Shown here piece by piece: positions 50,232 to 57,654 of a DNA stretch of 64,000 bases. The stretch's first letter is position 1, and each line of letters opens with the position of its first letter. Location of the stretch: assembly GCF_022565915.1 (NCBI RefSeq), contig NZ_JAJOYX010000001.1:744001-808000 (forward strand), in the 5' to 3' direction. The DNA is from Nesterenkonia sp. LB17. GTDB taxonomy: Bacteria > Actinomycetota > Actinomycetes > Actinomycetales > Micrococcaceae. The notes beneath the pieces are model-generated. The model did no database searches. It was not told where the DNA came from and saw nothing but the letters and a program-made list of their open reading frames with translations. Made by a program: the position numbers and the translations under genes.

Positions 50232-52013
50232 ATGGCTGAGCGCACCGCAGAGACCCCAGAGAACACCCCTGACATCGTCGCGGGCAAGGCACCCTTCACC
50301 CCGCCCACCGCGGTCACCGGACCATCGAGTCCGGAGAAGCCGCGCAGCTGGGAGGTCACCGACGGCTACACCCGCGCCCCGGCGCGCGGGATGCTGCGTG
50401 CGGTAGGCATGGGCGACGACGACTTCTCCAAGGCGCAGATCGGCATCGCCAGCTCTTGGAACGAGATCACCCCCTGCAACCTGTCCCTGGACCGCCTGGC
50501 CAAGGCCTCCAAGGAAGGTGTGCACGCCGGCGGCGGCTACCCGATGGAATTCGGCACCATCTCGGTCTCCGACGGCATCTCCATGGGCCACGAGGGCATG
50601 CACTACTCGCTGGTCTCCCGCGAGGTCATCGCCGACTCCGTGGAGACCGTCATCCAGGCCGAGCGGCTCGACGGCTCGGTGCTGCTCGCCGGCTGCGACA
50701 AGTCCCTGCCCGGCATGCTCATGGCCGCGGCTCGGCTCAACCTCTCCAGCGTGTTCCTCTACGCCGGCTCGATCATGCCCGGCGTGGCCCGCTTCGCCGA
50801 CGGCACCGAGAAGCAGGTCACCCTCATCGACGCCTTCGAAGGTGTGGGCGCCTGCGCCCGCGGCACCATCAGCGAGGCCGACCTCGACGTCATCGAACGC
50901 GCCATCTGCCCCGGCGAAGGCGCCTGCGGAGGCATGTACACCGCCAACACCATGGCCTGCATCGGCGAGGCCCTGGGCATGTCGCTTCCCGGCTCCGCCG
51001 CCCCGCCCTCGGCCGACCGCCGCCGCGACCACTACGCGCACAAGTCCGGCGAGGCCGTGGTGGAGCTGCTCCGCCAGGGCATCACCACTTCAGACATCCT
51101 CACCAAGAAGGCCTTCGAGAACGCCATCGCGGTGACCATGGCCTTCGGCGGCTCCACCAACGCGGTGCTGCACCTGCTGGCCATCGCCCGCGAGGCCGGG
51201 GTGGAGCTCGAGCTCGAAGACTTCAACCGCATCGGCGACAAGGTCCCTCACCTCGGTGACCTCAAGCCCTTCGGTCAGTACGTGATGGCCGACGTCGACC
51301 GGGTCGGGGGAGTGCCCGTGGTCATGCGCGCACTGCTCGACGCCGGCCTGATCCACGGCGACGCGCTCACCGTGACCGGCAAGACCGTGGCAGAGAACCT
51401 CGAATCGATCAACCCGCCGGACATCGACGGCAAGATCATCCGCGCGCTGAACAACCCGATGCACCCCAACGGGGGCATCGCCGTGCTGCACGGGTCACTG
51501 GCACCCGAGGGCGCGGTGGTGAAGTCCGCCGGCTTCGACGCCGAGGTCTTCGAAGGCACCGCCCGAGTCTTCGAACGCGAGCAGCAGGCGCTCAAGGCGC
51601 TCGAGGAGGGCCGGATCCAGGCGGGCGACGTCGTCGTCATCCGCTATGAGGGCCCCAAGGGCGGTCCGGGCATGCGCGAGATGCTGGCCATCACCGGAGC
51701 CATCAAGGGCGCCGGGCTGGGCAAGGACGTTCTGCTGATCACCGACGGGCGCTTCTCCGGGGGCACCACCGGTCTGTGCATCGGGCACATCGCTCCCGAA
51801 GCGGTCGACGGCGGCCCCATCGCCTTCGTCGCCGACGGTGACCTCATCCGGATCGACATCGCTGGGCGCAGCATCGAGCTCGTCGTGGACGCGGCCGAGC
51901 TCGCCACCCGGCAGCAGGACTGGACCCCGCTGCCGCCGTTCATCACCACCGGTGTGCTCGGCAAATACGCCAAGCTGGTCCGCTCCGCCGCAGAGGGCGC
52001 CTACTGCGGCTGA
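50232..52013 (+). CDS. ilvD: Dihydroxy-acid dehydratase
   Basis: IlvD dehydrates dihydroxy acids to the 2-keto acids of valine and isoleucine. The 593-residue protein has iron-sulfur cysteines in [11 protein letters not shown] and in [17 protein letters not shown], and RGMLRAVGM near the N-terminus. [17 protein letters not shown] is close to the C-terminus (blocks TDGRFSG and TGLCIGH). A 35-residue disordered N-terminal stretch precedes the enzyme core. The frame is open upstream, but ATG 50232 is preceded by a leaderless -10 box. A large imperfect inverted repeat follows the stop codon. Confidence 0.96.
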
Positions 52014-52024
52014 GGCCGCGCGCG

Positions 52025-52082
52025 CAGTGTCAGCAACCCGGATTCCCACGATGTGAGACGGGCATCCGGGATGTTGACACTG
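52025..52082 (+). repeat. Imperfect 19-bp inverted repeat after ilvD
   Basis: CAGTGTCAGCAACCCGGAT (52025-52043) pairs with 52064-52082 at 17 of 19 positions. It could end the ilvD transcript without a T-run. Its right arm holds TTGACA, the likely -35 of the ilvB leader. Confidence 0.75.
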
Positions 52083-52102
52083 ATCACGGGCCAGGGAAGC
52101 AT
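52074..52102 (+). promoter_or_regulatory. ilvB leader promoter (TTGACA - 17 bp - AAGCAT)
   Basis: A perfect -35 TTGACA (52074-52079) is 17 bp from AAGCAT, a weak -10 match. Initiation would fall next to ATG 52110, giving a leaderless leader peptide. Confidence 0.45.
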
Positions 52103-52109
52103 GGACGCC

Positions 52110-52166
52110 ATGCGTCAACTACTAGCGGTAGTACCCGTACCCGCCGCCGGGGGACATGTGAAGTGA
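52110..52166 (+). CDS. ilvB leader peptide (attenuation)
   Basis: A short frame encodes MRQLLAVVPVPAAGGHVK, with consecutive Leu-Leu and Val-Val codons followed by Val. The codons are CTA CTA, GTA GTA and GTA, which are rare in this GC-rich DNA, so ribosomes should stall strongly when charged Leu or Val tRNA is scarce. It ends at TGA 52164-52166. An in-frame ATG at 52101 would add three residues. A stem-loop series and a terminator follow before ilvB. This matches the known actinobacterial ilvB leader-peptide attenuators. Confidence 0.78.
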   Translation: MRQLLAVVPVPAAGGHVK

Positions 52167-52290
52167 TTCACACGCCTCAGGTCGGCCGCTCGTCTGCCTC
52201 ACCGAGGCAGCCGAACGGTTGAACTGGAGCTGACGCATCCGCTCACCCCGGCAGAAGGCCCCATAGGCTTCTCAGCCGGGGTTTTCTCTT
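52167..52290 (+). promoter_or_regulatory. ilvB attenuator: alternative hairpins and terminator
   Basis: CTGCCTC-ACC-GAGGCAG forms one hairpin (52194-52210). The segment TGACGCAT (52231-52238) can pair with the leader peptide start ATGCGTCA (52110-52117). The terminator is CCCCGGC/GCCGGGG (52246-52252 with 52275-52281) with an inner AGAAGGC/GGCTTCT stem, then TTTTCTCTT. Ribosome stalling on the leader would decide which forms. Confidence 0.72.
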
Positions 52291-52362
52291 GACCGGAGCG
52301 GATCCGCCACGGATCAGAGATTTCTTGGATCAGCAATTCGGGAACCAGAGACTGAGGAAAAG

Positions 52363-54240
52363 ATGAGCAATCTGACAGCCACGAGCCCAGCCATGCTGGC
52401 CTCCAAAGCATCCAGCAGCGCCGCTGGGACTTCCCCGGACCCGCGCATCTACGGTCCCGGCCGCACGGTGGAGCCGGTAGCGGCCACCGGCGCCGAATCG
52501 ATCATTCGCAGCCTCGAGTCACTCGGCGTGACAGACGTCTTCGGCATCCCCGGCGGCACCATCCTGCCCACCTATGACCCGCTGATGGACTCCGAGCAGA
52601 TCAACCACATCCTGGTGCGCCACGAGCAGGGCGGCGGCCACGCCGCCCAGGGCTACGCGATGGTCACCGGTCAGGTGGGCGTCTGCTTCGCCACCTCCGG
52701 CCCCGGCGCGACGAACCTGGTCACCCCGATGGCCGACGCCCACATGGACTCCGTGCCGATGGTCGCGATCACCGGCCAGGTCAACGCCGCGGTCATCGGC
52801 ACCGATGCGTTCCAGGAGGCCGACATCGTCGGCATCGCCACCCCGATCACCAAGCACTCCTTCCTGGTCACCGACGCCGACCAGATCCCGAAGGTCATGG
52901 CAGAGGCCTTCCACCTGGCCTCCACCGGTCGGCCCGGCCCGGTGCTGGTGGACATCACCAAGTCCGCCCAGGTCGCCCAGACCACCTTCGCCTGGCCGCC
53001 GAAGATCGAGCTCAACGGCTACCGTCCGGTCACCCGCGGGCATTCCAAGCAGATCCGCGAGGCCGCGAAGCTGATCCAGGCCGCCTCCCGCCCGGTGTTC
53101 TACATCGGCGGCGGCATGATCAAGGCTGAGGCCTCCGAGGAGTTCTACGCGCTGGCCGAGACCGTCGGCGCACCGGTGGTCAACACGCTCATGGCCCGCG
53201 GCGCCTTCCCGGATTCGCACCAGCAGAACCTGGGAATGCCCGGGATGCACGGCACGGTCTCCGCCGTCGCCGCGCTGCAGCGCTCGGACCTGCTGATCAC
53301 CCTCGGCGCGCGCTTCGATGACCGGGTCACCGGGCAGCTGGAGAGCTTCGCCCCGGACGCGAAGGTCATCCACGCCGACATCGACCCCGCCGAGATCTCG
53401 AAGAACCGCGCGGCCGACGTGCCGATCGTCGGCTCGCTCAAGGAGATCGTGCCCGAGCTGACCTTCGCCTTCGACGCGCTGGTGACCAAGCACGGACGCA
53501 CCGACATCAGCGGCTGGTGGAAGCAGCTCAACCGCTTCCGCGAGACCTACCCGCTGGGCTACACCACCCCGGAGGACGGGAAGATCGCCCCGCAGCAGGT
53601 CATCGAGAAGATCAACCAGGCCGCCGGTCCCGAGGCCGTCTACGTGGCCGGCGTCGGGCAGCACCAGATGTGGTCCTCGCAGTTCGTCAAGTACGAGCGG
53701 CCGCGGCAGTGGCTGAACTCCGGCGGGCTCGGCACCATGGGCTACGCGGTGCCTGCCGCCATGGGCGCCCAGGTGGGCAACCCGGACCGGGTGGTCTGGG
53801 CCATCGACGGCGACGGCTGCTTCCAGATGACCAACCAGGAGCTCGCCACCTGCGCGATCAACAAGATCCCGATCAAGGTCGCGGTGATCAACAACTCCTC
53901 GCTGGGCATGGTGCGGCAGTGGCAGACCCTCTTCTACGAGTCCCGCTACTCCAACACCCACCTCAACACCTCGGTGTCCGACTCCGGCGGGGAGATCGTT
54001 CGGATCCCCGACTTCCTCAAGCTCGCCGAGGCCTACGGCTGCGTGGGGCTGCGCTGTGAGCGTCCCGAGGACATCGACGCCGTGATCGCCGAGGCCATGG
54101 CGATCAACGACCGCCCGGTGGTCGTGGACTTCGTGGTCTCGCGGGACTCGATGGTCTGGCCGATGGTCCCTGCAGGGGTCTCCAACAGCGACATCCAGTT
54201 CGCGCACAACCTGACCCCGCAGTGGGACGAGGAGGACTAA
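52363..54240 (+). CDS. ilvB: Acetolactate synthase large subunit
   Basis: IlvB makes acetolactate or acetohydroxybutyrate, the first shared step of Val/Leu/Ile synthesis. The 625-residue protein has a 45-residue disordered start, then the TPP-activating Glu at about E88 ([14 protein letters not shown]). The FAD-binding region follows, and the TPP motif [15 protein letters not shown] is near residue 480. The ATG 52363 lies behind GAGGAAAAG. Expression is predicted to be controlled by the leader just upstream. ilvN follows after 3 bp, giving the usual subunit pair. Confidence 0.97.
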
Positions 54241-54243
54241 AGC

Positions 54244-54777
54244 ATGGGCACACATGACATCGTCTCGCCGGAGCAGCGACGCACCCTCTCGGTCCTGGTC
54301 GAGGACGTCCCCGGCGTGCTGACCAAGGTCTCCGGACTCTTCGCCCGCCGCGCGTTCAACATCCACTCGCTGGCGGTGGGTCCCTCCGAGCTGCCGGGGC
54401 TGAGCCGGATCACAGTGGTGGTCGACGCCGACTCCAAGCTGCTCGAGCAGATCACCAAACAGCTGAACAAGCTGATCAACGTCATCAAGATCATCGAGCT
54501 GGCACCGGAGAACTCGGTCCAGCGCGAACACCTGCTGATCAAGGTGAAGGCCGACTCGCCCACCCGTCTGCAGGTCACCCAGGCCGTCGAGCTCTTCCGC
54601 GCCAAGATCGTGGACGTCTCCGTGGACTCACTGACCGTCGAGGCCACCGGCGCGCCTGACAAGCTCAATGCTCTGCTGGAGGTCCTGGAACCCTTCGGAG
54701 TCCGCGAGATCGTGCGGTCCGGCGGGCTCGCGATCTCCCGCGGCGCGAAGTCCATGACCGACAGAGCGCTGCGCTGA
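54244..54777 (+). CDS. ilvN: Acetolactate synthase small (regulatory) subunit
   Basis: The 177-residue regulatory subunit has an N-terminal ACT domain (LSVLVEDVPGVLTKVSGLFARR, blocks VEDVPGVL and ARRAFNIHSLAVG) that binds valine, and a C-terminal domain with KVKADSPTRL and FGVREIVRSG. Valine binding gives feedback inhibition of IlvB. It is 3 bp after ilvB and 57 bp before ilvC, in the standard ilvBNC order. Confidence 0.96.
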   Translation: MGTHDIVSPEQRRTLSVLVEDVPGVLTKVSGLFARRAFNIHSLAVGPSELPGLSRITVVVDADSKLLEQITKQLNKLINVIKIIELAPENSVQREHLLIKVKADSPTRLQVTQAVELFRAKIVDVSVDSLTVEATGAPDKLNALLEVLEPFGVREIVRSGGLAISRGAKSMTDRALR

Positions 54778-54834
54778 ACACCACCTCGGAACCACTGACC
54801 TGTAACCCCACCCCCACCATGAGGAGCCCTCACT

Positions 54835-55860
<1,026 letters not shown>

Positions 55861-57568: not shown

Positions 57569-57592
57569 GCTCAGCGCTGATCCGGTGCAGGT

Positions 57593-57629
57593 CCCGGTGC
57601 AGGTCTCGAGGACCGAGTCCTGCACCGGG
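57593..57629 (+). terminator. Terminator after serA
   Basis: CCCGGTGCAGG (57593-57603) pairs with CCTGCACCGGG (57619-57629), giving an 11-bp perfect stem followed by ATCTTC. A direct copy of CCGGTGCAGGT just upstream may add an alternative stem. Confidence 0.7.
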
Positions 57630-57654
57630 ATCTTCACCGGGCAACCGCGTGGGG

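Follow-up and report, generated by a model that had tools for sequence, protein, structure and literature searches.

A predicted ribosome-mediated attenuator with a putatively leaderless leader peptide and rare control codons upstream of ilvBNC in Nesterenkonia sp. LB17

In Nesterenkonia sp. LB17 (genome 2.82 Mb), an 18-codon open reading frame (MRQLLAVVPVPAAGGHVK) sits between the end of ilvD (52013) and the start of ilvB (52363). Does this short frame control the genes that follow it, which serve leucine, valine, and isoleucine synthesis, and if so, how would its translation be sensed? Positions are those of the window, by which we mean the whole stretch of 64,000 nucleotides that was analyzed. 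An earlier note on this DNA had described a leader ORF, rare codons, a terminator, and a long-range helix before ilvB, all of which we confirmed, and had read them together as an ilvB attenuator. We find that reading right in kind, with its wiring corrected as described below. The coding features are as follows:

52110 to 52166, plus strand: leader ORF MRQLLAVVPVPAAGGHVK, putatively leaderless; related leaders in 30 of 30 genus genomes
52363 to 54240, plus strand: ilvB, the operon's first gene, from its translation and close relatives
54244 to 55860, plus strand: ilvN (54244 to 54777) and ilvC (54835 to 55860), from their translations

We take the name ilvB from pathway knowledge and context, and the names ilvN and ilvC are presumptive family assignments. 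The codons of the leader (52110 to 52166) are ATG CGT CAA CTA CTA GCG GTA GTA CCC GTA CCC GCC GCC GGG GGA CAT GTG AAG TGA, placing a short ORF with Leu and Val codons 5′ of ilvBNC. By IlvB the nearest named relatives are Nesterenkonia (L002 to L004, 82 to 83% identity), and the leader was found in all 30 genomes of the genus that we examined, in two of them (L130 and L131) by way of fragmentary ilvB matches. These genus leaders (L102 to L131) fall into a long type with a large spacer hairpin, in which the T-tract is reached after about 180 nt, and a short type without that hairpin, in which it is reached after about 125 to 147 nt. Rfam gave zero matches within 52000 to 52400 up to E = 5, and thus placed the region in no T-box or riboswitch family. 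We consider it quite probable that ilvBNC is controlled here by ribosome-mediated transcription attenuation, with a leader peptide translated from a leaderless mRNA.

Upstream of the leader the elements are ordered TTGACA-17-AAGCAT-7-ATG and are preceded by an operator-like box:

52044 to 52059, plus strand: IclR-type operator-like box TCCCACGATGTGAGAC; the genus pattern is commonly GTCCA-N5-TGAGAC
52074 to 52079, plus strand: predicted −35 hexamer TTGACA; TTGAC lies 35 to 37 nt before the ATG in 30 of 30 genus leaders
52097 to 52102, plus strand: candidate −10 hexamer AAGCAT after a 17-nt spacer, assigned by eye from the genus promoters, which mostly have NANNAT there

AAGCAT fits three of the six −10 consensus bases, and a simple consensus scan of 51900 to 52400 returned 0 promoter-like and 0 terminator-like sites. 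Because the consensus match is weak and the terminator stem is interrupted, the case for both promoter and terminator is built on conservation across species. Among 77 loci outside the genus, 49 combine a BCAA-rich short ORF with the same TTGAC-to-start offset of 35 to 37 nt, compared with a mean of 0.17 loci for each background offset (15 to 33 and 41 to 79) in the same set; the other 28 showed no such leader under these offset and ORF criteria. The earlier note had remarked that the promoter spacing would allow a leaderless leader, and the constancy of that spacing in all 30 genus leaders agrees. Since the promoter-to-ATG distance is fixed, the leader mRNA is probably leaderless, and from the sequence we infer a transcription start at 52109 to 52110. 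Transcription from the ATG itself has been reported for Streptomyces lividans ilvL (excerpts of PMC8079986), and transcription of the Corynebacterium glutamicum leader starts one nucleotide from its ATG (excerpts of PMC11857589).

In all 30 genus leaders GAGAC is found 53 to 56 nt upstream of the ATG, and the LB17 box ends 14 nt upstream of the −35 hexamer. We take the box to resemble also the C. glutamicum LtbR site. It resembles the motif of NdgR in Streptomyces coelicolor, where ilvB is an NdgR target (PMC4340878). The TGAGAC box suggests predicted repressor control on top of attenuation. A separate observation concerns the DNA around it: after ilvD there is a 23-nt inverted repeat (87%; 52025 to 52047 with 52060 to 52082) that encloses the TGAGAC box and whose right arm holds the −35 hexamer. 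By eye this repeat is not kept in L106 or L109, and thus it may be a local ilvD terminator.

Downstream, the leader region folds more stably than 200 dinucleotide shuffles of it (z = −4.5), and the following elements were recognized between the leader's last codons and ilvB:

52146 to 52152, plus strand: predicted antiterminator 5′ strand GCCGGGG, within the leader ORF; GCCGGG in 30 of 30 genus leaders
52157 to 52172, plus strand: hairpin TGTGAA-GTGA-TTCACA spanning the stop codon; in 14 sequences 93.8% of cells are paired and two pairs have both-side changes
52174 to 52228, plus strand: large spacer hairpin from leader to terminator; 85.9% of cells paired, with both-side changes at 8 of 22 pairs
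52246 to 52252, plus strand: predicted antiterminator 3′ strand CCCCGGC, common to the terminator 5′ arm, from pairing and conservation
52245 to 52289, plus strand: predicted intrinsic terminator, stem 52245 to 52282 plus T-rich tract TTTTCTCT; outer stem 99.1% of cells paired

The terminator stem (52245 to 52255 with 52272 to 52282, interrupted) runs into TTTTCTCT, so that a U-tract terminator stands before the first gene, although the pattern scan had no match; the strong terminator ending in a T-run that had been noted earlier is therefore there. The segment 52246 to 52252 can pair either with 52146 to 52152 or with the terminator 3′ arm, and the two folds are mutually exclusive. The antiterminator 5′ strand lies in the leader's last codons (Ala-Gly), and in L121 and L122 GCCGGG is read in another frame (CCG CCG GGG versus GCC GCC GGG GGA). 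Its retention across different reading frames indicates that the nucleotides, and not the peptide, are conserved. In the alignment of 14 long-type sequences every antiterminator cell is paired (100%), and no pair has changed on both sides, because the helix hardly varies. The nested structure (start-codon helix P1, stop-codon hairpin, spacer hairpin, and terminator) has 88.6% of cells paired in the same sequences and changes on both sides at 11 of 51 pairs, with pairing at no more than 41.8% when the structure is slid. In the short-type set, RNAalifold found little structure.

The start-codon helix P1 had been proposed by the earlier note, and its strands are as follows:

52110 to 52117, plus strand: P1 5′ strand ATGCGTCA, including the start codon, from the minimum-energy fold and the genus predictions
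52231 to 52238, plus strand: P1 3′ strand TGACGCAT, the exact reverse complement of 52110 to 52117

An inverted-repeat search returned the P1 arms as 11 nt at 91%, and P1 is present in the minimum-energy fold of the query locus. Without a ribosome, the P1 probability exceeded 0.5 in 29 of 29 distinct genus sequences, compared with 0.40 of shuffled controls, a figure that is high because P1 was defined loosely, as any pair between nt 2 to 8 and the 30 nt before the terminator, which were the nucleotides shuffled. The covariation is weak: in the 14 long-type sequences 89.3% of cells are paired and no pair shows changes on both sides, with P1 pairing there understated because L112, which is misaligned at these columns, was left in. 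Where the second codon is CGC, the opposite strand has mostly stayed CTGACGC, and 14 of the 16 such leaders have the resulting C x A mismatch or weak P1 pairing; L113 and L128 also pair poorly. In L126 and L127 both strands have changed together, and these have the strongest own pairings of all (−13.9 and −14.2 kcal/mol). Over 26 distinct pairs, own pairings were only slightly stronger than swapped ones, at −10.15 versus −9.57 kcal/mol (permutation p 0.013). We conclude that P1 is likely real; in the folding models it shields the start codon and favors the terminator, acting with it as an antiantiterminator. The long-range helix of the earlier note was thus sound, while its proposal that this helix replaces the usual local 2:3 antiterminator was not, having overlooked the GCCGGGG-CCCCGGC helix, which by its sequence is a conventional, though long-range, antiterminator.

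We modeled the position of the ribosome by masking 26 or 30 nt around a codon and folding the remainder. These folds are at equilibrium and without pseudoknots, whereas the real decision falls during transcription. With a 26-nt footprint at the query locus, a ribosome at codon 4, 5, 7, or 8 gave the antiterminator (0.97 to 1.00), while no ribosome, or one at codon 10, codon 17, or the stop, gave the terminator (0.97 to 1.00). Codon 8 became ambiguous with the 30-nt footprint (antiterminator 0.44). All 29 genus sequences formed the terminator both with no ribosome and with a ribosome at the stop, and 16 of 29 formed the antiterminator with a ribosome at codon 5 (query locus 0.99). The 13 that did not were 12 short-type sequences and one of the long type (L108), and the switch in these must be kinetic or differ. 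Ribosome position thus decides the fold in silico at the query locus, with these 13 of 29 lacking the codon-5 switch. When P1 was removed and a ribosome placed at the stop, the antiterminator formed in 8 of 29 sequences with the 26-nt footprint and in 0 of 29 with the 30-nt footprint. These outcomes suggest that, in the long type, the off state is maintained by P1 and completed by masking of the leader end. A partial transcript with a ribosome at the stop (26-nt footprint) still folded into the antiterminator.

The earlier note had further claimed that the leader uses codons that are rare in this DNA, and a count of codon usage bears this out. In 213 ORFs sampled from 20 stretches of contig 1 (91671 codons), CTA made up 47 of 9256 Leu codons (0.5%) and GTA 124 of 7498 Val codons (1.7%). 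Nine-codon windows held two CTA or GTA codons in 27 of 90200 cases and at least three in 0 of 90200; leader codons 4 to 12 hold five:

52119 to 52133, plus strand: predicted control codons CTA CTA (52119 to 52124) and GTA GTA (52128 to 52133), from rarity and predicted folds
52137 to 52139, plus strand: further GTA, codon 10; in the models a ribosome there masks the antiterminator strand (terminator 1.00)

The preference is shared by the genus. Comparing 29 genus leader sequences with 30 ilvB sequences, we found CTA as 41 of 52 versus 4 of 1122 Leu codons, GTA as 73 of 114 versus 26 of 1657 Val codons, and ATT as 12 of 14 versus 42 of 1073 Ile codons. The remaining leader codons are less skewed, with CAA and CGT, both part of the start-codon helix, and GGG and GGA, located around the antiterminator strand, as the main exceptions. 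Outside the genus, 49 leaders have GTA as 38 of 140 Val codons (69 of 2805 in ilvB), CTT as 40 of 89 Leu codons (61 of 1930), and ATT as 24 of 48 Ile codons (136 of 1777). In these comparisons the preference for rare control codons extends beyond Nesterenkonia, and CTA is the form that Nesterenkonia uses.

The placement of the rare codons is as telling as their number. For 26 distinct leaders, we assigned each Leu or Val codon to a free zone, where a ribosome positioned on it would leave GCCGGG uncovered, or to a masked zone, where it would not. Rare CTA or GTA filled 91 of 107 positions in the former versus 12 of 43 in the latter (Fisher p 3e-11, which overstates the case because the leaders are related and the sequences not independent). 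This placement is as expected of control codons, not of general codon drift. It also agrees with the common GTG found at the final Val of the query leader, although the GTA at codon 10 is among the 12 exceptions. Because a ribosome at codon 10 would mask the antiterminator, this GTA is probably not a control codon. Of the leader GTAs that the earlier note invoked, the GTA GTA pair is kept in that role and the third is set aside. That rare codons sharpen stalling is an analogy with CUA in the Salmonella leu leader, for which it has been shown (excerpts of PMC1183508). Among the 6 tRNA genes in the window and the 19 further stretches scanned, none encodes a tRNA reading CTA or GTA.

How these parts would yield stalling, switching, and a response to amino acids can be set out as follows. 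Transcription would begin at or within one base of the leader ATG, so that a ribosome would load at the 5′ end. When both Leu and Val are in good supply, it would clear the rare codons, reach the stop, and cover or edge GCCGGGG; the freed 5′ end would pair with the 3′ strand of P1 just before the terminator, the antiterminator would not be held, and the terminator would form and stop transcription. With Leu or Val scarce, the ribosome would stall on CTA CTA or GTA GTA and cover the 5′ end, so that P1 could not form, and the stall would leave GCCGGGG free to pair with the terminator 5′ arm, allowing RNA polymerase to read into ilvBNC. CTA and GTA probably make the stall sensitive, since their tRNAs are probably minor or lose charge early. 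In its fullest form, the proposal is that the leaderless start codon doubles as a sensing strand, that two crossing long-range helices report a ribosome on the first codons, and that this belongs to a wider actinobacterial a-b-a′-b′ design, one helix joining the 5′ end to a segment before the terminator and the other joining the end of the leader to the terminator or to what lies next to it, with rare codons restricted to positions at which a stall would release the antiterminator. This full form we advance only tentatively.

A simpler two-state attenuator would consist of antiterminator and terminator only, with P1 incidental or serving just to block loading of a second ribosome on the leaderless start codon, and we regard it as a real possibility, if short of probable. 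With the 30-nt footprint a ribosome at the stop alone gives the terminator in 29 of 29 sequences without P1, as the two-state scheme would have it, and the lack of both-side changes in the long-type P1 and the weakness of P1 in the short type point the same way. However, with no ribosome, removal of P1 flips the outcome to the antiterminator in 10 of 29 sequences, the query locus included, and both the prediction of P1 in every genus sequence against the shuffled controls and the paired changes in L126 and L127 argue for a helix with a role. It is highly improbable that the mRNA is not leaderless at all, with the transcript starting upstream and the leader translated from an in-frame ATG at 52101, or from 52110 with an SD-like AGGGAAG. 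LB17 does have this ATG together with AGGGAAG at 52093 to 52099, and L114 and L115 also carry an in-frame upstream ATG, but four leaders (L111, L116, L117, L121) lack the upstream ATG, and two (L107, L112) have it out of frame. The TTGAC-to-ATG distance is moreover held as for a promoter that starts at the ATG, and the reported leaderless state of S. lividans ilvL counts on the same side.

The rare codons could instead set basal ribosome speed and RNA polymerase coupling, leaving an IclR-type repressor, bound at the upstream box, as the main agent of amino-acid control. We think this unlikely, although it draws on the TGAGAC box upstream in genus loci, on the binding of NdgR to ilvB in S. coelicolor (PMC4340878), and on a report that changing candidate control codons of S. 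coelicolor ilvB had no effect (excerpts of PMC1262725), which also tells against an attenuator. In C. glutamicum, by contrast, replacing three leader Val residues abolishes valine-dependent expression (excerpts of PMC11857589), and in Mycobacterium tuberculosis changing LVVI to AAAA abolishes induction (excerpts of PMC13236596). More doubtful still is the idea that CTA and GTA were chosen for RNA pairing and not for their tRNAs, CTACTA and GTAGTA forming a small hairpin. The minimum-energy fold of the query locus does pair the CTA and GTA codons, but GTC at codon 7 in L103 and L104 weakens the hairpin, members with CTA-CGA-GTA, CTA-GTA-GTA, or CTA-GAA-CTA retain CTA and GTA, and the 49 leaders of other genera are enriched in rare codons (CTT, GTA, ATT) in other contexts. 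We rejected the hairpin as the reason for the codon choice because it is not kept in relatives.

The preferred reading, a ribosome-mediated attenuator, makes LB17 a known kind of switch with variant wiring: other bacteria already provide examples of leaderless ilv leader peptides, of an antiantiterminator, and of rare control codons, each taken singly. The Salmonella leu leader presumably has its own untranslated region, unlike the probably leaderless leader of LB17. It shares rare CUA control codons with LB17 but differs in operon and phylum (excerpts of PMC1183508). There, a change of CUA to CUG made the response to Leu limitation less sensitive (Carter et al. 1986, cited in PMC1183508), and the same excerpts warn that rarity is too simple a measure, as selective charging of tRNA isoacceptors counts. 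Leader peptides and terminators of ilvB were predicted in 2005 in Corynebacterium, Mycobacterium, and Streptomyces (excerpts of PMC1262725). The closest parallel in detail is C. glutamicum, which likewise has a Val/Leu-rich leader before ilvBNC with transcription starting near the ATG, and a three-hairpin model with an antiantiterminator shielding the start region, an antiterminator, and a terminator (excerpts of PMC11857589). Its control codons are CUU and GUA (same excerpts), whereas those of LB17 are mainly CTA and GTA. Its antiantiterminator H1 is a local hairpin with its apex at positions 30 to 52 (same excerpts). P1, by contrast, connects the 5′ end with a segment some 115 nt downstream that directly precedes the terminator, and it crosses the antiterminator.

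S. lividans ilvL has a leaderless peptide MRTRILVLGKRVG before ilvBHC, with a terminator (excerpts of PMC8079986). M. tuberculosis ilvB1NC, like LB17, has a short BCAA-rich ORF, an antiterminator, and a terminator; its control codons were tested by reporter in 2026, with the ribosome taken to mask about 26 nt (excerpts of PMC13236596). We set it beside LB17 by description, and in those excerpts we met no rare-codon analysis or 5′-end helix. The ilvB-II motif, described from one genus, Corynebacterium, has a conserved BCAA-rich uORF before ilvB with an antiterminator and a terminator (excerpts of PMC10272879), and is likened to LB17 by description only. In the one open-access library searched, for Nesterenkonia attenuators and for ilvB, Arthrobacter, and rare codons, we found no paper on the LB17 locus. 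In the literature compared we did not meet Nesterenkonia, a 5′-end helix crossing the antiterminator, an ORF-internal antiterminator strand shared with a terminator arm, or a restriction of rare codons to certain positions. In 30 genomes of this single genus, rare codons occupy the positions at which a stall could have an effect, and the codons elsewhere are mostly ordinary ones; the rare-codon idea from Salmonella leu becomes testable in a GC-rich actinobacterium in which CTA is 0.5% of Leu codons. The locus also offers an example of an attenuator on a putatively leaderless mRNA, in which nothing keeps the 5′ end from taking part in the switch.

Comparable helices were seen in other actinobacteria. 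In Arthrobacter and relatives (L008 to L011, L013, L018, L022), leader codons TTC GTT ACC, with small changes, can pair with GGTAACGAA. The two Arthrobacter helices would cross in the same order as in Nesterenkonia: one pairs TTCGTTACC with GGTAACGAA, and the other pairs GCGCGTG at the leader end with CACGCGC immediately upstream of the terminator. In Streptomyces, Nocardioides, Jiangella, and Janibacter (L059, L068, L072, L066, L060, L046) the leader end pairs directly beside the terminator, and in the two Streptomyces loci that we folded it pairs next to, not inside, the terminator stem, unlike in LB17. This beside-terminator pairing may bear on the negative S. coelicolor codon result. Two minor observations arose alongside. 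Assemblies labelled Sporosarcina (L026), Proteobacteria bacterium (L031), and Bifidobacterium breve (L049) carry Micrococcales-like ilvB genes 68 to 72% identical to the query and are probably mislabelled or contaminated. Elsewhere in the window, an inverted repeat between serA and the next gene (57577 to 57645), with weak miRNA-model matches on both strands, is probably a terminator.
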